Assembly: GCA_903899825.1 (NCBI GenBank)
Contig: CAIUKU010000370.1
Location: 1-37,638 of the forward strand
Length of the DNA stretch: 37,638 nt
Source of the DNA: an uncultured Bacteroidales bacterium
GTDB taxonomy: Bacteria > Bacteroidota > Bacteroidia > Bacteroidales > JACABE01
Reading direction: 5' to 3'
In this document: positions 8,272 to 20,853 of the stretch, piece by piece
How positions within the stretch are numbered: the first letter of the stretch is position 1
Layout: each line of letters starts with the position of its first letter
Translations under genes and position numbers: made by a program
Notes under the pieces: model-generated
The model's input: the letters and a program-made list of their open reading frames with translations, nothing else
Databases searched by the model: none
Told to the model about the DNA's origin: nothing

Positions 8272-9123
8272 TTATTGAATTATTTTTAAAACTTTCAGTG
8301 CATTCATCGTAATTTCCTTTCGTATCATGGGAAACATCTCCATATTAAATTTTTCACGGGCTTCCACATTGGTGGCAAAAAACCAGACTGAAGGACCTTT
8401 TTCAATATATCCTACAAACCATCCATTGTTGTTGCCATTTCTGATTGACCAACCGGTTTTTCCACTGATGGTGTAGGATACTGTGCTGTCGATTACCATT
8501 AATTCTTTCATGATTTTTTCTGTTCGGGGGGAGATGGGTAATTTCGAATCATAAAATCTTTTTAAAAAATCAATCTGTTGAAACTGACTGATTTTTGAAT
8601 CGCCTTCCAGCCAGAATACATCTATTGTATTCGAATCCACCACCATATTTCCATATTCAAATTTTTTAAGAAAGGCCTGCATTCTTTTGCTGCCAATTTT
8701 TCTTGCAATTTCCTGATAACATGGTACACAGGAAAGATGAAATGCTTCTCTGAAATTCATATCCTTCTCCCAGACAGCCAGTCTTCTTTTCTCACCCTTC
8801 CATTTGAAAAGGGTGGTATGATCCTTCACAACTCCGCTTTCTAGTGCAATGATTGAATTTGGAATTTTAAAAGTTGAAGCAGGCAGTTTTCCGGTTTCAG
8901 CCCATTTGAAATCATTGGAATAATACCATTGTTTTTGAGGGTCGAATATCAGCACACTACCCTCCACATTGGATGAATCAATGATAAACTGTAATTCAGG
9001 CTTATTTACTTCAATTTTTTTTGCATTTACGGTCTGAAGTAAAACGGTTTCTGGCTGTTTGGTGTTGGAACAGCCATAAAATACAGTCAAAAGTAATATC
9101 AGAAAGTTGTGTTTTGTTTTCAT
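8272..9123 (-). CDS. Class D (OXA-type) beta-lactamase, lipoprotein-like
   Basis: The 283-residue product has every class D signature: S83-TFK with the active serine and the lysine that is normally carboxylated (PASTFKIPNS), SCV at 131-133, YGN at 157-159, WLEG at 171-174 and KTG at 222-224. The enzyme would open beta-lactam rings by an acyl-serine route in the periplasm. The N-terminus (LLLTVFYGC18) looks like a lipoprotein signal with a loose lipobox, so it may be membrane-anchored. One oddity is SCVPCYQ: a second cysteine at 135 where most OXA enzymes have a hydrophobic residue. No mobile element flanks it, so it is probably resident. A regulator-type sensor domain such as BlaR1 is unlikely because the protein is only one domain long. 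Confidence 0.9.
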   Translation of the reverse strand: MKTKHNFLILLLTVFYGCSNTKQPETVLLQTVNAKKIEVNKPELQFIIDSSNVEGSVLIFDPQKQWYYSNDFKWAETGKLPASTFKIPNSIIALESGVVKDHTTLFKWKGEKRRLAVWEKDMNFREAFHLSCVPCYQEIARKIGSKRMQAFLKKFEYGNMVVDSNTIDVFWLEGDSKISQFQQIDFLKRFYDSKLPISPRTEKIMKELMVIDSTVSYTISGKTGWSIRNGNNNGWFVGYIEKGPSVWFFATNVEAREKFNMEMFPMIRKEITMNALKVLKIIQ

Positions 9124-11406: not shown

Positions 11407-12921
11407 CTAAAATTGAAAATAGATAAAAGGTTGTATTTCTGCTGATTTTACCTGATACAACATAAAAACAACCAATACCACTACCACTGCTTTCGCCAGA
11501 TAAGGTATATTTATGAAATAGTTTTTGTAATATTCCTTGGTAGATACCGGCAACCAGTGAATGATAAATCCCAGTAAAATCAGTGAAAAAACATTTTTAT
11601 AAGAAACAATTACATCAGGGATCATTTGCCAGTTGAAATGATAAAAAATCTGGGACAATATGGTTGAAACACTCCTCATGCTATCGGCTCTGAAAAATAT
11701 CCATGCAAATATCACGAAGTGAAAGGTGATAAATGCCGGCCAAAACCTGCTCCAAAGATTCGGGTTTTCTTTGGAAGGAAACCACTTCATCCAAAGTTTG
11801 TGCATCATCAGACCAAACCCATGCAGTGCTCCCCAAATGATGAATCTCACAGCAGCACCATGCCACAATCCGCCTATGAGCATCACCAAAAACAAATTGA
11901 TATAGGTTCTGATCTTCCCTTTTTTGTTACCTCCCAAAGGAATATATAAATAATCCCTCAGCCAGGTAGACAATGAAATATGCCAACGGTGCCAGAAATC
12001 GGTGATATTGGCCGCTTTATAAGGTGAATTGAAATTCACAGGTAAGCGGAAACCCAACAACAGAGCTACACCGATTGCAATATCGGTATAACCCGAAAAA
12101 TCGCAATAAATCTGTATCGTATAACCGTAAACGGCCATTAAATTTTCAAAACCGGAATACGACATCGGGCTATCGAAAACCCTGTCGACAAAATTGGTGG
12201 AAATATAATCCGAAATCAACATTTTCTTGATGAGACCATTCAATATCAGGAATAAAGCAAATCCGAATTCTTTTTTTGAAAGCACAAAATCTTTGTACAA
12301 TTGCGGAATAAAATCGTAAGCTTTTACGATAGGTCCTGCCACCAATTGAGGGAAAAAGGTAACAAAGCAACCATAATCCAAAATATTGTGCAAAGCAGCT
12401 ATCTTTTTACGATAAACAGAAACCGTGTAACTGATGGACTGAAAAGTATAGAATGAAATCCCGACAGGTAAGATGATAGAAGTAATATCAAGATGTGTAC
12501 CTGCTACTCCATTGGTCCAGAAAGCAAGGTAGTTTACCACTTTAAAATCACTGTGAAATATTGTATTGATGCTGTCAAGTAAGAAGTAGCTGTATTTGAA
12601 ATAGGCCAGTACACCCAGGTTCATGATAATACTCAGGATAAGATAAAGTTTCTTCCGACCCTGGGTTTTTGCCTGCTCTATCCATAAACCAACAGCAAAA
12701 TCGAAGAGAGTAGTAAAAGCAAGTATAAGAAAGAAGTAGCCCCCCGATTTATAATAAAAAAAGGAACTTACCAGTAAAAGATAGGCATTCCTGGCCGGCT
12801 TTTTCTTGTAAATTACAGAATAAAAGCTCAGTACTACCGCAAAAAATATCCAGAAATACATGCGGGTAAATATCATTGGCGCCTGGGGGTCGTAGGTGAA
12901 AATATCCTTTAGGTAATCCAT
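11407..12921 (-). CDS. MBOAT family O-acyltransferase (AlgI/PatA-like)
   Basis: The 504-residue protein is rich in membrane segments throughout. It carries the family motifs FFPQLVAGPI (about 189-198), YCDFSGYTDIAIG (272-284), DFWHRWHISLSTWLRDY (308-324) and GGLWHGA (350-356) with the expected catalytic histidine H354, plus GALHG with H367. AlgI and PatA use this fold to carry acetyl groups across the inner membrane for transfer to alginate or peptidoglycan by an SGNH partner. Two SGNH genes lie directly upstream on the same strand, which supports that role here. The glycan acceptor cannot be told from the sequence. A nonamer array lies just before the start codon. Confidence 0.92.
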   Translation of the reverse strand: MDYLKDIFTYDPQAPMIFTRMYFWIFFAVVLSFYSVIYKKKPARNAYLLLVSSFFYYKSGGYFFLILAFTTLFDFAVGLWIEQAKTQGRKKLYLILSIIMNLGVLAYFKYSYFLLDSINTIFHSDFKVVNYLAFWTNGVAGTHLDITSIILPVGISFYTFQSISYTVSVYRKKIAALHNILDYGCFVTFFPQLVAGPIVKAYDFIPQLYKDFVLSKKEFGFALFLILNGLIKKMLISDYISTNFVDRVFDSPMSYSGFENLMAVYGYTIQIYCDFSGYTDIAIGVALLLGFRLPVNFNSPYKAANITDFWHRWHISLSTWLRDYLYIPLGGNKKGKIRTYINLFLVMLIGGLWHGAAVRFIIWGALHGFGLMMHKLWMKWFPSKENPNLWSRFWPAFITFHFVIFAWIFFRADSMRSVSTILSQIFYHFNWQMIPDVIVSYKNVFSLILLGFIIHWLPVSTKEYYKNYFINIPYLAKAVVVVLVVFMLYQVKSAEIQPFIYFQF

Positions 12922-12940
12922 GTGTGAGTTAACAGTTTTT

Positions 12941-13003
12941 AAAGTTTATAAAGTTCATAAAGTTTATAAAGTTAGTAAAGTTAGTAAAGTTTGTAAAGTT
13001 TTA
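12941..13003 (-). repeat. Phase-perfect nonamer array upstream of the MBOAT gene
   Basis: Seven consecutive units of the form AAAGTTNRT are seen on the plus strand, with the last slightly degenerate. In the MBOAT sense direction this reads as ACTTTATAA-type pyrimidine-rich words ending about 19 bases before the ATG. The same words occur at 14767-14795 and 27071-27153. Confidence 0.8.
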
Positions 13004-13074
13004 AGACATTTAGATTTTTATTTATTTTGAATTCTTTTTATTATTTATTTAGTCATCATTCTGATAAAGTGTCA

Positions 13075-13200
13075 CTTCCATCTTCAATCTTCCATCTTCT
13101 TTCTTCCGTCTTCCGACTTCCATCTTCTGTCTTCCGACTTCCGACTTCCGACTTCCAACTTCCAACTTCCGACTTCCAACTTCCAACTTCCAACTTTTCA
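13075..13200. repeat. Phase-perfect heptamer array, 18 units of CTTCCRN
   Basis: Eighteen 7-base units follow one another with no indel. Most are CTTCCGA, CTTCCAA or CTTCCAT; the variants are CTTCAAT, CTTCTTT, CTTCTGT and a last CTTTTCA. The array touches the stop codon of the second SGNH gene (13204). Because 7 is not a multiple of 3, it opens a meaningless frame on the plus strand with a 7-residue repeat. Confidence 0.85.
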
Positions 13201-13203
13201 CAA

Positions 13204-14436
13204 CTACCAGCTTTTCTCAATAAACCGGTCGTAAGCTTTTAGAAATGCATTGAACAACAAATCGCCCTGTAGTTCATAACCGGCTTTTGAAAAATGAATC
13301 CTATCATTGGCAGCCAAACCTAATTTCTGCCATTTTTTCATTGACATAAAACCTCCCATTATTTGATACAAATCCCAAACAGCACATTCGTTTTGACCGG
13401 CAATATTTAGAATAGCCCGTTTAGCCAACATCATATCAGGGTTGGGATAACGCTTTTTACGATAACTGTCTGCCGGCGTTGTTAATAAAATAAAACTATG
13501 CGGTAAAGCATGTTTTATCCTTTGAATGAGCTGTTGGTAATGATTTTCAAAAACGACAGGGTCAAAGTTTTTACCGTATGCATCGTTGGTTCCCAGAGAA
13601 ACAATGATCCATTCCGGATTTAAAATCTTTAACTGTGCTTCCAGTAAACTGCATTTCAGGAAACTACTCACTTCAGCTCCATTCACACCTACAGCAGAGC
13701 AAATGATGCCCGGATCATCATTGTCTAATTCAATACCATACAATGCAAAATTCTTTTGCAGTGAATCGGTTTTCTGAAAAAACAAATTAAGTGTATCAAA
13801 ATGAGCATCTGAAGTAAATGAAGTATAGCCCAATGAATTGTATTCACCATTTATAATTTTGTCCTCCATTAGTTTAACCTTAAAAACTGTATCACCGGTA
13901 TTGTGAAATATTTTTACTTTATTAAAATCCTGAAAAGGATAGTTTCTATTGTTTAAAATGATTTGAATACTGGCATTTGAATCGGTAGTAGTTACTGAAA
14001 TCCCCGCAATTCCCAATTCACAGCCATTGAGATTCTGAATATTTCTGCAATGCTGCCACTTTCCGGTATATTTCACTTTATAGTTATCAGGATTGTTGGT
14101 AGCTGCCACATTGTACGGGAAGATAAATCCACGACTGCCCTGTATTCCCAAAGCAAAACGCTGAAGGTTTTCACGAAGCCTTCCCGAAAAAAAATCAGCC
14201 TGTATATGGGAATCCCCGATATGTAACACCCTTATTTGTCCTTTGCCCTTTAATATTAATTGATTCAGATTTTTACAGACATTGTTGAAATCATTTTGTG
14301 CATTCCCGAAAAAATGCAGACTGTCAGCATTCTGATTGATAAAAGAATAGACAATATGCTTGTAGGGTGTTTCCTGTGCATACACCGCTGCAGATAACAA
14401 AAAAATGAATATTATGAATATTAGCCTTTTTCCCAT
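13204..14436 (-). CDS. SGNH/GDSL-type hydrolase or acetyltransferase, second copy
   Basis: The 410-residue product begins MGKRLIFIIF with a signal peptide ending near AAVYAQ (about 1-21). I chose the ATG at 14436 over a TTG one codon upstream. SGNH blocks are clear: GDSHIQAD with S76, SLGTNDAYG with G282 and N284, and DRIHFSKAGY with D378 and H381. Between blocks I and III, about 120-240 looks like a beta-rich insert. In PatB, AlgJ and AlgX such enzymes pass acetyl groups to, or remove them from, envelope sugars in the periplasm. It shares this plan with the gene upstream at 14800-16293. The MBOAT gene follows it, supporting a shared pathway. Confidence 0.87.
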   Translation of the reverse strand: MGKRLIFIIFIFLLSAAVYAQETPYKHIVYSFINQNADSLHFFGNAQNDFNNVCKNLNQLILKGKGQIRVLHIGDSHIQADFFSGRLRENLQRFALGIQGSRGFIFPYNVAATNNPDNYKVKYTGKWQHCRNIQNLNGCELGIAGISVTTTDSNASIQIILNNRNYPFQDFNKVKIFHNTGDTVFKVKLMEDKIINGEYNSLGYTSFTSDAHFDTLNLFFQKTDSLQKNFALYGIELDNDDPGIICSAVGVNGAEVSSFLKCSLLEAQLKILNPEWIIVSLGTNDAYGKNFDPVVFENHYQQLIQRIKHALPHSFILLTTPADSYRKKRYPNPDMMLAKRAILNIAGQNECAVWDLYQIMGGFMSMKKWQKLGLAANDRIHFSKAGYELQGDLLFNAFLKAYDRFIEKSW

Positions 14437-14599
14437 CAATACGTAGTATCTTTATTCTTTAAAAATTAATGAAATAATACGCATGATATAAGTTGTATCT
14501 TAAAATAATACTGTAATTTACATATACCATAACATATTGAAAATAATAATTATACAAATGCTTGATTTTTATTTTTGGGCTAAAGACCATTTTGTCTGT

Positions 14600-14664
14600 T
14601 CATTTTTCAAACCCGACTTAAAAGTCGGGACTAATAAATAGCCACGTCCTTTAGTGAAAAATGA
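14600..14664. repeat. Nested palindromes, possible REP or MITE-like element
   Basis: An outer 10-base inverted repeat, TCATTTTTCA (14600-14609) and TGAAAAATGA (14655-14664), encloses a perfect 8-base dyad, CCCGACTT and AAGTCGGG (14612-14629). The words GCTAAAGAC (14579-14587) and GTCCTTTAG (14646-14654) add a further imperfect inverted pair. Confidence 0.6.
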
Positions 14665-14766
14665 TGAATATCAAATTGGCTTTAACCAAACTTATTATTA
14701 ATTTTTACAACGCAATATTCTACAATCATAATGTATTATAAACGCTTTAAACTATAAACTATACAA

Positions 14767-14795
14767 CTTTATAAACTTTATGAACTTTATAAACT
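14767..14795 (+). repeat. Short nonamer array, ACTTTATAA family
   Basis: Three exact units, CTTTATAAA, CTTTATGAA and CTTTATAAA, followed by CTA. It lies just past the stop codon of the first SGNH gene. The words match those upstream of the MBOAT gene and of nadK. Confidence 0.7.
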
Positions 14796-14799
14796 AATT

Positions 14800-16293
14800 C
14801 TATCTGTTCAATGCTATTTTCCCAATTCCGCTTTCTGATAATTTTACATATTGTAAATAGTCGTATATCAATGCATTGTAAAACATTTCGGCCACCATGC
14901 GGGAGCCTTTTTCATTAAAATGTGTAAAGTCTTTATTGGCCAAAGCGGGTGTTGCAAATACCCAACTTGGCATTGAATTTTCACCGCCCATGGCTTCAAA
15001 CAAATCCCAATAGGCACAGCCGGCTTTAAAAGCTGCATTTTTCTGGGCTTTCCTTATTTTTTCAATATTGGGATTGGTTTCGTAATTATCACCTGCTTTT
15101 CGTGATCGATCCGAAATCCCGATGACAATGACACAAATATTTTTATCTGTAGCTTTAATGGTTTTCAGTTGATTATAAAAACCCCTCTCGTAATAGGAAT
15201 AATCAGGTATTATGGTTTTTTCATTTTCAGGGACAGCATTCACGCCAAATTGCATGATAACAAGTTTTACATTCAGCAACTCATAAAATTTCTTTAAAAA
15301 ATCAAAATTCATCTGTGCAAATCCGTAACCTGAACTTCCTCTTAAAGGAATGTTATCCACAGCTAAGCCTTTGTCTGCATCCAGTGCAAATCCATAAATG
15401 TCGGGACTGTCTTTTCCTTTCAATTGCATGGTGAAGGATGAAGGAGATTTTTTAAAATCATATTCAAATACATTGAGATCTTTATTGGGAGGCAGCATTT
15501 CACTGCTGATTACTTCTTTATTTGCCAGAAGATTCAACCTGACCTCTTTTTTATTATAACCATAAAAAAGCCGAAGCTTTTGAAAATCGAGGGTATTGGC
15601 ATATCCCTGATTGGATTTGCTTATATAAATACTTCCATTGAAATGAGAGGAATCAGCAGATGATGAATCCTGAACAGCAGGCGAAAATCTGGCAAAACCC
15701 AGCATAGCTCCATACCTGCTATGACCGATTTTTGAAACAGGTTTACCAATAAGACTGTATTTAACACAATTGTCAGAAACCGATTCATTCAATGAAGCCG
15801 AAGGGGTTGCATTCAGTAACTGCATCAAACCAGAACCCTTACCTCCAAATTTTGCCTGTAACTTAAAGCGAAGATAACCGGTAATTCTGTCACCTTCTAT
15901 CTGAGAATCTCCATAATGTAAAATTCTGATGAGTTCATTGGCATCTTTTAATTTGTAAAGTGACTGGAAAACAGGGTATAAAATCGTAATATCATTGTTG
16001 GGATATTCAAGCTTACGGATGTTTTGAAGCAAGACATTGCGCGAAGCTTTGGAAGTATCATTTACCAATGAATCAATATTTAAGACTGTTTTAGTACTGT
16101 CCATAGGATCGGTTGTAATAGCAGAAATATCTGCGTAAGCTTGCTTTTTCGACGAAAAAACCTCTTCAAAATCAGGGCAGTATAGATTGATCTTTTGACT
16201 GATTTTAATTCCATTTTTAGGAAAAACCAACATCAAAAAACTAAATAATAGAAAAACAAAAAGAAGAAATAGCAGAATTTTACCGGGTTTCAT
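14800..16293 (-). CDS. SGNH/GDSL-type hydrolase or acetyltransferase, first copy
   Basis: The 497-residue product has an N-terminal membrane anchor (about 5-24) rather than a clear cleavage site, so it probably stays tethered to the inner membrane facing the periplasm. SGNH blocks are GDSQIEGD with S130, QFGVNAVP with G350 and N352, and DFTHFNEKG with D455 and H458. A beta-rich segment lies between the first two blocks, as in the second copy. It starts 41 bases after the lytic transglycosylase gene and is probably in its operon. The pairing with an MBOAT gene suggests acetyl transfer to or from an envelope glycan. Which copy transfers and which removes acetyl groups cannot be told. Confidence 0.87.
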   Translation of the reverse strand: MKPGKILLFLLFVFLLFSFLMLVFPKNGIKISQKINLYCPDFEEVFSSKKQAYADISAITTDPMDSTKTVLNIDSLVNDTSKASRNVLLQNIRKLEYPNNDITILYPVFQSLYKLKDANELIRILHYGDSQIEGDRITGYLRFKLQAKFGGKGSGLMQLLNATPSASLNESVSDNCVKYSLIGKPVSKIGHSRYGAMLGFARFSPAVQDSSSADSSHFNGSIYISKSNQGYANTLDFQKLRLFYGYNKKEVRLNLLANKEVISSEMLPPNKDLNVFEYDFKKSPSSFTMQLKGKDSPDIYGFALDADKGLAVDNIPLRGSSGYGFAQMNFDFLKKFYELLNVKLVIMQFGVNAVPENEKTIIPDYSYYERGFYNQLKTIKATDKNICVIVIGISDRSRKAGDNYETNPNIEKIRKAQKNAAFKAGCAYWDLFEAMGGENSMPSWVFATPALANKDFTHFNEKGSRMVAEMFYNALIYDYLQYVKLSESGIGKIALNR

Positions 16294-18296: not shown

Positions 18297-19610
18297 TTAT
18301 AATTTATGCTGCTTATTTTTTTCTCCGGAAACAATCAATGCCTTTACCGGAGCAAGTCCTGTAGTGGTCCCGTTTTCAATGGCTTTCAACACGGCACCGC
18401 CACCGGTAAATATGTAATAATTGGGACTGTCGAGGGCCGAAATATACAATCCCGGCAACAATCGTTTGAGTTCCTGCATGGTATCACCCCCTCCGTATAG
18501 TTTGATTGCATTCACATTGCTGTCGATCAGTTCATCCAGGGCAATGGTGCCTTCGTTAAAGAAAGGAGTATAGCCCATTACTGCATTTACAAATATCGTT
18601 TGAGCCTGATGGAAAACTTTTATCACATTTTTTTCGAGAAAAGATTCTTTGGCAATGTCCAACACATAATTCAGGGCAGTTCCGGCTTTGATTTCAGCTA
18701 TATTTCTTAGCCGGTTTTTCCCTTTCAGCTTGCCCTCCATGGTGTCAGATTCAATGATATAAGGCAATTCGATAATTTTATGCTTGTACTTTTTGGCAAA
18801 CTTAACAAATTCGAGGGCATGCTCCATATCGTCAGCTTCAATGCCTTTGATGGTAAAATTATATTTGGCACAGAGATAGGCATTGTAAATTACACCCCCC
18901 AATACCAGATAATCGGCTTTTTCGAGCAAGGCAAAAAGCGAATCAATTTTGGTATCGAATTTGGAACCCGCCACCACTGCAAGAAACGGACTTTCAGGTT
19001 GATAAATTCTTTCGAGATTGGTAATTTCCTTTTGCATCAGAAATCCGGCATAAGATGGCAAATATTGGCTGACCTGTACCGTGGAAGCATGCGCCTGCCA
19101 GGAGCCAAAAGCATCGTTGATAAAGATATCAGCCAGCCCCGCCAGCTGGTTGGCAAAGCGGTCAGCCTCTTCTCCTTTGGCTTCTTCACCTGAAAACCAA
19201 CGGGTATTCGGCAAATAAATACCATCTATCAAACCTTCCTTCAACTCACGGATGAGGTGATTTACAGATGTCTCTACCCCCAGATAACCTTGTTTTTCGC
19301 GGGCGAAAAACTCCGGAACTTTCAATGTAATATGCAATTTCTGTTGCAGATAATCTACAATAGGCTGAATTGCGGTTTTATCGCTGATGGTAATTTCTCC
19401 GGTTTTTTTATCTTTCGGACGACCTACATGGGTCATCAGTATAATTTTTCCACCTTTGGAAATAATATGAAACAAGGTTCCAATGGTAGCATCAATGCGG
19501 TAAGGATCGTGAATGACGCCGTTTTTCACCACATTGTGATCTACTCTCACCAGCACAACTTTGCCTTTCAAGTCAGCCTGTTGTATCAATGGTATCTGAA
19601 GATTTTCCAT
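18297..19610 (-). CDS. pgk: Phosphoglycerate kinase, divergent
   Basis: The family enzyme interconverts 1,3-bisphosphoglycerate and 3-phosphoglycerate with ADP/ATP in glycolysis. The 437-residue product aligns over the whole fold: VRVDHN (21-26), R38, THVGRP (H61, R64), NTRWF (R137), DAFG (166-169), AHAST, K217 and K221, YGGGDT (372-377) and TGGGA near the end. Several places differ from the usual enzyme. VRVDFN has H for F. TAHRAHAST is one residue shorter as SWQAHAST, so the arginine of the basic patch is replaced by Q172. WNGPMGVFE reads VNAVMGYTP. It is about 40 residues longer than normal. It could be a slow or altered kinase, or a paralogue of a normal pgk elsewhere. It is on the same strand as ilvE. 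Confidence 0.8.
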   Translation of the reverse strand: MENLQIPLIQQADLKGKVVLVRVDHNVVKNGVIHDPYRIDATIGTLFHIISKGGKIILMTHVGRPKDKKTGEITISDKTAIQPIVDYLQQKLHITLKVPEFFAREKQGYLGVETSVNHLIRELKEGLIDGIYLPNTRWFSGEEAKGEEADRFANQLAGLADIFINDAFGSWQAHASTVQVSQYLPSYAGFLMQKEITNLERIYQPESPFLAVVAGSKFDTKIDSLFALLEKADYLVLGGVIYNAYLCAKYNFTIKGIEADDMEHALEFVKFAKKYKHKIIELPYIIESDTMEGKLKGKNRLRNIAEIKAGTALNYVLDIAKESFLEKNVIKVFHQAQTIFVNAVMGYTPFFNEGTIALDELIDSNVNAIKLYGGGDTMQELKRLLPGLYISALDSPNYYIFTGGGAVLKAIENGTTTGLAPVKALIVSGEKNKQHKL

Positions 19611-19833: not shown

Positions 19834-20853
19834 TTATTCTACAATAGTATTCCAGTTGTATTTATCTTCAACTTCACCTTCCTGAATAGCTCTCAGCATA
19901 TTGTATAATTTAGTGGAAACAGGACCTGCTTTTCCGTCCTTACAATACAGGTATTCTTCTTTGGTATCGCGATCCTGAATTCTCTTAATAGGAGAAATTA
20001 CAGCAGCGGTTCCACAGGCACCTACTTCTTCAAAATCAGCAAGTTCTTCAACGCTGACATGACGTTGTTCTACGGTTAAGCCTATATCTTCGGCCAACTT
20101 GCGGAGACTCATATTGGTAATAGATGGTAATATAGAGTTTGATGAAGGTGTGATATATTTATTGTCTTTGATACCAAAAAAGTTGGCAGGACCTGCTTCA
20201 TCAATGTATTTCTTTTCTTTGGCATCTAAAAACAATACTGAAGCAAAACCTTCATCGTGTGCTCTTTCGCCGGCTCTTAAACTGGCAGCATAATTACCAC
20301 CTACTTTATAACAACCGGTTCCCAGTGGAGCAGCCCTGTCGAAATCGCGAACGATCTGAATGCTTACAGGGTTAAAACCTTCTTTAAAATAAGGACCTAC
20401 CGGACCTACAAATACGATAAACAAATACTCACTGGCCGGTTTTACCCCTACCTGAGGGCCTGAACCAAATAAAACGGGACGAATGTATAAAGAGGCACCT
20501 TCACCATAAGGCGGGATGTATCGCTCGTTCATTTTAACAGCCTTAAGTACAGCCTCTCTGAATAATTCAGTAGGAATATGGGCCATCATGATGCCAAAGG
20601 CAGAATTCTGCATACGTTTGGCATTTTCTTCCAGGCGGAAAATTCTGACTTTTCCGTCTTTTCCCCTGAATGCTTTTAAACCTTCAAATGCTTCCTGCCC
20701 GTAATGTAAAGCAGTGGCAGCCATGTGTATATTTACATATTCCGATGAGGAAATTTCGAGCTGACCCCATTCGTTGTTACGAAAAAAGCAGCGAACATTA
20801 TAATCGGTTTTAAAATAACCAAAAGGTAAATTTTTCCAATCAATAGTATTCAT
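19834..20853 (-). CDS. ilvE: Branched-chain amino acid aminotransferase
   Basis: IlvE is a PLP enzyme that moves the amino group between glutamate and the keto acids of leucine, isoleucine and valine in the cytoplasm. The 339-residue product is of the longer (BCAT II-like) fold-type IV form. It carries ALHYGQEAFEGLKAFR (48-63), LYIRPVLFG (122-130), the PLP lysine K183 in GCYKVGGNYAAS, and DEAGPANFFG later. Near the end GACGTAAVISPI is the usual phosphate-binding and substrate loop. Length and motifs are normal. A terminator follows it, and a 22-base perfect palindrome lies 56 bases upstream of the start. Confidence 0.95.
   Translation of the reverse strand: MNTIDWKNLPFGYFKTDYNVRCFFRNNEWGQLEISSSEYVNIHMAATALHYGQEAFEGLKAFRGKDGKVRIFRLEENAKRMQNSAFGIMMAHIPTELFREAVLKAVKMNERYIPPYGEGASLYIRPVLFGSGPQVGVKPASEYLFIVFVGPVGPYFKEGFNPVSIQIVRDFDRAAPLGTGCYKVGGNYAASLRAGERAHDEGFASVLFLDAKEKKYIDEAGPANFFGIKDNKYITPSSNSILPSITNMSLRKLAEDIGLTVEQRHVSVEELADFEEVGACGTAAVISPIKRIQDRDTKEEYLYCKDGKAGPVSTKLYNMLRAIQEGEVEDKYNWNTIVE

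Follow-up and report, generated by a model that had tools for sequence, protein, structure and literature searches.

PGK-B, a divergent phosphoglycerate kinase subfamily of Bacteroidales and Cloacimonadota with changes in both substrate pockets

Phosphoglycerate kinase (PGK, EC 2.7.2.3, PF00162) is described as having substrate-binding sites conserved between organisms (PMC7729029, section 3.1). The same section names R65, R122 and R170 as ligands of the 3-phosphate, with further contacts from H62 and D23/N25, and an acidic residue as ligand of the ribose. In the part of that paper cited here, salt bridges from R65 and R170 to D218 stabilize the closed form of human PGK, and the PGK of the anaerobe Entamoeba histolytica is GTP-selective and reported as canonical in structure. 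The algal proteins PGK3 and PGK4 are PGK-like and linked to arsenate resistance, and their genes adjoin those of ArsJ and GAPDH3 (PMC7826186, in the part cited). For Cloacimonadota, the phylum of Ca. Tenebribacter, the cited part of PMC13082233 (2026) reports from one genome a complete glycolysis in which pyruvate orthophosphate dikinase replaces pyruvate kinase.

Here we analyze a PGK homolog encoded in the window (the whole stretch of 37,638 nucleotides, from an uncultured Bacteroidales bacterium), together with the clade to which it belongs, for which we use the name PGK-B: a second PGK subfamily, recognized by a Trp-Gln pair in the basic patch. With canonical PGK it shares the fold (Z about 37-42 to the PGK structures listed), a full-length PF00162 match, and residues D23, N25, R38, H62, R65, R122, K215, K219, N336 and the GGGD loop (mammalian numbering). 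It differs in the replacement of R170 by Gln, H169 by Trp and F24 by His, in the absence of E343, and in two loops that are shorter by one and two residues. The window protein is about 25-34% identical to solved PGKs in the structural alignments listed, and falls in a separate clade. By description it resembles algal PGK3 and PGK4 in being a non-canonical PGK paralog beside a canonical one, but neither ArsJ nor GAPDH3 is among the PGK-B neighbor clusters listed, and these clusters contain no neighbor supporting an arsenate-resistance role like that of PGK3. With the Entamoeba enzyme, likewise compared by description, it may share a change on the nucleotide side, although the Entamoeba enzyme is reported to have a canonical structure. 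A search of the open-access literature, which mostly leaves subscription papers outside its coverage, returned no description of the PGK-B family.

The window protein and its substrate sites

The window open reading frame is an intact PGK homolog, lying downstream of an aminotransferase gene that is read in the same direction:

18297..19610, minus strand: PGK-B gene, ATG start, 437 amino acids plus stop, PF00162 match, AlphaFold model
19834..20853, minus strand: class IV aminotransferase (PF01063), upstream of PGK-B, same direction

The plus strand of 18297-19610 is interrupted by stops. The protein matches PF00162 with about 276 bits (Pfam gathering cut-off 27) over model positions 1-377 of 379. 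Among the NCBIfam models, the bifunctional PGK/TIM model NF010569 is matched far below its cut-off (208.9 vs 883 bits), and no other model is matched at E 0.001. An AlphaFold2 model built from a 59-row alignment (pLDDT 93.2, pTM 0.89) fits the two-domain PGK fold, and all 50 of the best solved matches listed are PGKs (Foldseek, structural alignment). The best of these is 3q3v_A (Z 41.9, rmsd 2.1 over 384 residues), and 1php gives Z 40.7. The initial annotation held that the gene had not decayed, and we likewise reject decay, since the frame is open and conservation in the clade extends to members with 50% identity.

Residues were compared in a single alignment of 129 PGK-B rows and 102 canonical rows. 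The PGK-B rows comprise the window protein and 128 open reading frames of 405-520 amino acids without X; they contain 124 distinct sequences, a few genes having entered twice from two collections, and the loci L040 and L125 were dropped. The canonical rows are the 106 domains found with the canonical PGK of the window's genome, minus four PGK-B; very divergent PGK-like proteins are absent from them. They comprise 49 from Bacteroidia, 5 further from Bacteroidales, 11 from Cloacimonadota, 12 from Spirochaetota and 25 from Altiarchaeota, with group names taken from record titles or from the group searched. The sites concerned are as follows (window numbering, mammalian equivalents in brackets):

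19536..19538, minus strand: codon of H25 (F24), between the conserved Asp and Asn; His in 129/129 PGK-B rows
19497..19499, minus strand: codon of the catalytic Arg R38, retained; Arg in 100% of PGK-B and 99% of canonical rows
19419..19430, minus strand: H61-V-G-R64, basic-patch His and Arg (H62, R65), retained in 100% of PGK-B rows
19200..19202, minus strand: R137, basic-patch Arg (R122), retained in 100% of PGK-B and canonical rows
19095..19100, minus strand: W171-Q172, replacing His169-Arg170 in a loop shortened by one residue; Trp-Gln in 129/129 PGK-B rows
18948..18962, minus strand: K217-F-D-T-K221, both catalytic Lys (K215, K219) retained in 100% of PGK-B rows
18564..18590, minus strand: VNAVMGYTP, changed loop on the nucleotide side, shortened by two residues and lacking the ribose-binding Glu; gap in the Glu column of 129/129 PGK-B rows
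18480..18494, minus strand: GGGDT (G373-G-G-D-T377), phosphate and Mg loop, retained in 100% of PGK-B rows

On the triose-phosphate side, the segment G169-S-W-Q-A-H-A-S176 stands against canonical G-T-A-H-R-A-H-A-S, with Trp for His, Gln for Arg and one residue fewer; the pair is Trp-Gln in 129/129 PGK-B rows and His-Arg in 102/102 canonical rows. The window protein has D24-H25-N26 where canonical PGK mostly has DFN, and the canonical residue in the H25 column is Phe in 76, Ile in 13, Leu in 11 and Tyr in 2 of the 102 rows. The initial annotation had picked out the Arg-to-Gln change (SWQAHAS for TAHRAHAS), the His for Phe in VRVDFN and an altered WNGPMG, and had listed R38, H61, R64, R137, both active lysines and the GGGD loop as present; all of this is borne out in the window protein, and the first two changes hold throughout the PGK-B rows. 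H25, W171 and Q172 are also invariant in the separate 59-row alignment, whose most distant members are 50% identical to the window protein, and such invariance across PGK-B speaks against both chance and sequencing error. Further fixed differences include Val for P27, Pro for the Glu before N-x-R and Trp for the Phe after that Arg (both near R122), and Phe for the Ser before TGGG. Among the basic residues gained are K29 (128/129), three residues after the conserved Asn, and K68 (129/129).

The initial annotation dealt with the triose-phosphate side only, but the nucleotide side is changed as well. The window protein reads V341-N-A-V-M-G346 for canonical WNGPMG, the loop following MG is shorter by two residues, and the GGG after the adenine strand is GGV. 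In the column of the ribose-binding Glu (E343), 129/129 PGK-B rows show a gap, against Glu in 102/102 canonical rows; gap placement inside this loop is uncertain, and residues 347-352 of the window protein include no acidic residue. The alpha-phosphate contacts N342 and T377 are retained. At the sequence level, PGK-B has lost one universally kept anchor for each substrate, R170 on the triose-phosphate side and E343 on the ribose side, while the residues that carry the chemistry stay in place.

These changes suggest that PGK-B might catalyze the same triose-phosphate reaction with a different nucleotide (guanine or other, in preference to adenine), a special case of an active PGK that we regard as possible but doubtful. 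The E343 gap, the changes of GGG to GGV and WNGP to VNAV and the Phe before TGGG are all consistent with it, and the Entamoeba enzyme offers a precedent for GTP selectivity. That enzyme is nevertheless called canonical in structure in the cited part of PMC7729029, which means that these residues need not reveal which nucleotide is used, and the kept alpha-phosphate contacts favor some nucleotide without indicating which. Pyrophosphate was also considered as the phosphoryl partner because of the pyruvate orthophosphate dikinase reported, in the part cited, for Cloacimonadota (PMC13082233), and appears unlikely, since the alpha-phosphate contacts are retained.

The loss of two universally kept anchors could also point to a catalytically dead or regulatory PGK-like protein, and the active site is indeed broken in some PGK-like proteins (L299-L302, L304-L308). 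The catalytic residues of PGK-B are retained in 100% of the 129 rows, and many genomes have no other PGK, which makes a dead protein very improbable. The second, divergent PGK-like proteins of Spirochaetota (L299-L302, L308), comparable to PGK-B in being such, show the opposite pattern: they keep H169, R170 and mostly E343, with R65 replaced by Asp and K219 by Ala. That divergent PGK-like proteins elsewhere lose R65 or K219, while PGK-B does not, supports an active PGK-B. The PGK-like proteins L303-L307 are still more divergent than L299-L302 and L308, which come from the phylum of genome G359. Among the ten very divergent PGK-like proteins read, R170 is kept in five, is Lys in three, and is Tyr or Glu in two.

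If PGK-B is active, its 3-phosphate may be held by R65, R122 and H62, perhaps together with the new H25, K29 or Q172, and domain closure would be stabilized otherwise than by the R65/R170-D218 salt bridges. With R170 and E343 lost and both pocket and closure changed, substrate affinity, product release or nucleotide preference would be expected to differ from those of canonical PGK. The altered kinetics proposed in the initial annotation are plausible on these residues.

Clade, tree and distribution

A maximum-likelihood tree of 41 rows (25 PGK-B, 11 bacterial canonical and 5 archaeal) separates PGK-B from the other rows by a branch supported at 100/100, its stem measuring 2.65 changes per site; the bacterial canonical rows cohere with 90/98 and the archaeal rows with 100/99. 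We regard PGK-B as a real PGK subfamily, ancient and distinct, in which both substrate pockets have been rebuilt. The window sequence groups with the Cloacimonadota copy from G413 (set support 93/99, not starred), a grouping that suggests transfer of PGK-B between phyla.

The genome of the window has two PF00162 matches: the PGK-B gene at 276.2 bits, and a standard pgk on contig C48 at 512.7 bits, in which RVDFN and the basic-patch His-Arg are both present. With this second gene present and PGK-B in its own clade rather than a normal Bacteroidota pgk clade, the case that the initial annotation had named as refuting its reading, a sole pgk inside such a normal clade, does not apply.

In the sample of relatives, the PGK-B type occurs in 10 of 40 genomes; a canonical PGK accompanies it in nine of them, all but G004, from the window's family. 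All three other genomes of the window's genus and the one other of the family sampled carry it (G001-G004). The ten proteins are 66-91% identical to the window protein, the copy at L040 being incomplete. The window's genome is a metagenome bin of 526 contigs with 2.12% contamination, which raises the possibility of a contaminating contig or misbinned gene. We give this negligible weight and reject it, since PGK-B is found in the sampled relatives of genus and family, several of which share the same aminotransferase neighbor.

When 344 genomes of the window's order were searched with a clade profile, 48 contained PGK-B (39 of the 284 better ones). In a comparison of the window protein with 295 genomes of its class, matches outside its own genome were no better than E 1.3e-44, whereas the self-match reached 5.6e-293. 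Scanning named genome contigs yielded 276 relatives; the best 80 of these 276 were retained and are mostly Bacteroidales/Bacteroidetes bins, the others being labeled Spirochaetes, Cloacimonadota, Aminicenantes, Delongbacteria and more. The named loci come from 50 genomes, of which 44 encode a canonical PGK in addition to PGK-B and six lack one, with one PGK-B in G343, G357 and G365 and two in G353, G372 and G374; in some of these six, the canonical PGK may be missing because the genomes are incomplete.

The Altiarchaeales single-cell genome G341 is the only carrier of PGK-B among 29 genomes of its phylum, which makes a contaminated genome the likely explanation. Of 100 genomes sampled from the phylum of G359, itself a Spirochaetes record, G359 alone has PGK-B; a 273-bit match in G760 was rejected on reading the sequence, which is not PGK-B. 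Four other records titled Spirochaet* among the best 80 of 276 carry it. Spread by viruses was also rejected, as none of the 23 viral-contig stretches that matched the peptide patterns encodes a relative.

The PGK step in Cloacimonadota and Bacteroidales

The role of PGK-B was approached through 78 Cloacimonadota genomes, mostly metagenome bins of unstated completeness. In 57 of these the only full-length matches are of the PGK-B type (244-302 bits), 11 have a canonical PGK above 500 bits (one of them has both), five have only fragments and five have none. Reading the PGK sequence from 56 of these 57 genomes showed the PGK-B motif in every one. Forty Cloacimonadota regions were used, with the PGKs of L239 and L255 read separately as L310 and L311; several genomes hold PGK-B copies as tandem pairs. 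GAPDH (PF02800) is present in 74 of the 78 genomes and enolase (PF00113) in 76. Both are present in 56 of the 57 sole-PGK-B genomes; across the 57, the GAPDH match is weak only in two and missing in one.

With PGK-B as the sole full-length PGK alongside GAPDH and enolase, the step between 1,3-bisphosphoglycerate and 3-phosphoglycerate has no other visible enzyme in these genomes, and we infer that PGK-B performs it. Being the only version in most sampled Cloacimonadota genomes, it very probably still does the job of PGK. We consider it most likely that PGK-B in general still transfers a phosphoryl group reversibly between 1,3-bisphosphoglycerate and a nucleoside diphosphate. Several observations count against this reading: GAPDH is weakly matched or missing in three of the 57 genomes, which like the rest are mostly metagenome bins; R170 and E343 are the same in 102/102 canonical rows, so their double loss could mean a changed reaction; the stem of 2.65 is as expected for a change of function; and the canonical PGK of the window's genome could do the glycolytic step alone. 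The preference for another substrate floated in the initial annotation sits poorly with the 57 of 78 Cloacimonadota genomes in which this is the only full-length PGK type.

An active PGK-B would serve as the only PGK in Cloacimonadota, and in Bacteroidales would work beside the canonical enzyme, perhaps, as a guess, in one direction (gluconeogenesis) or with one nucleotide pool. We tentatively entertain a more specific reading, in which PGK-B offers another way of carrying out the PGK step, one that prefers a different phosphoryl carrier (e.g. GDP/GTP) or is mainly gluconeogenic, and which replaced canonical PGK outright in most Cloacimonadota and runs parallel to it in some Bacteroidales. If PGK-B is an active PGK, R170 and E343 would be dispensable for the glycolytic reaction, and PGK-B would provide a natural system for studying PGK closure and nucleotide choice. 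For annotation, Pfam names these genes plain pgk; where a genome has both types, its two enzymes ought not to be equated in flux models.

Gene neighborhoods and PGK duplications

In 24 of the 38 Cloacimonadota loci read, genes for methylmalonyl-CoA mutase lie directly downstream of PGK-B on the same strand, with only a few bases between the PGK-B stop and the next open frame in most of them; PF01642 is matched in both loci tested by Pfam. MeaB trails the mutase genes in many of the 24, and L222 (1147-7773) shows the order PGK-B, mutase subunit, second subunit with B12 domain, MeaB. A connection between PGK-B and gluconeogenesis that starts from propionate or succinate is a guess.

The same neighborhood raises the alternative that PGK-B phosphorylates another carboxylic acid, e.g. 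the phosphate of another sugar acid or one of the acids on the propionate/succinate route, for which the long stem and the retention of PGK-B beside canonical PGK in Bacteroidales also speak. We consider it unlikely: in 57 of 78 Cloacimonadota genomes PGK-B is accompanied by no other full-length PGK type, and 56 of the 57 encode both GAPDH and enolase; the holders of the 3-phosphate (R65, R122, H62) and of the C2 oxygen (D23, N25) are present in all PGK-B rows, and methylmalonyl-CoA mutase was not recognized among the top 25 neighbor clusters of the 90 other loci, judged by eye from first residues. The readings weighed here are not mutually exclusive: the nucleotide case lies within that of PGK-B as an active PGK.

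In 12 of these 90 loci, PGK-B directly follows a fused canonical double PGK (795-838 amino acids) on the same strand, with two full PF00162 domains in one frame (e.g. L077:5420-7825, L128:5505-7958). In six more, a canonical PGK lies within four open reading frames of PGK-B, and adjacent PGK-B copies occur in four (L103, L135, L139, L146). Frames of 650-654 amino acids in G371, G373, G378 and G379 (loci L129, L136, L145 and L147) have a partial PGK before a full canonical PGK; the partial match covers model positions of about 171-367, i.e. half a PGK fused to a whole one. A 237-amino-acid PGK protein at L115:6171-6881 (minus strand), in an Aminicenantes-labeled bin, covers only model positions 184-366 and sits near PGK-B and a double PGK.

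The aminotransferase cluster upstream of the window gene is shared by L032, L033, L040, L072 and L073, L033 and L072 being from one genome. The aminotransferase is thus a neighbor in related genomes, without a proven functional link to PGK-B. Elsewhere in the window, 8272-9123 (minus strand) encodes a penicillin-binding transpeptidase-type protein (PF00905, 123 bits) with an STFK-like stretch that, we presume, resembles class D beta-lactamase. At 11407-16293 (minus strand), an MBOAT acyltransferase (PF03062) adjoins two GDSL/SGNH-type proteins (PF13472, the second just below the cut-off), an arrangement that we take to resemble polysaccharide O-acetylation sets.
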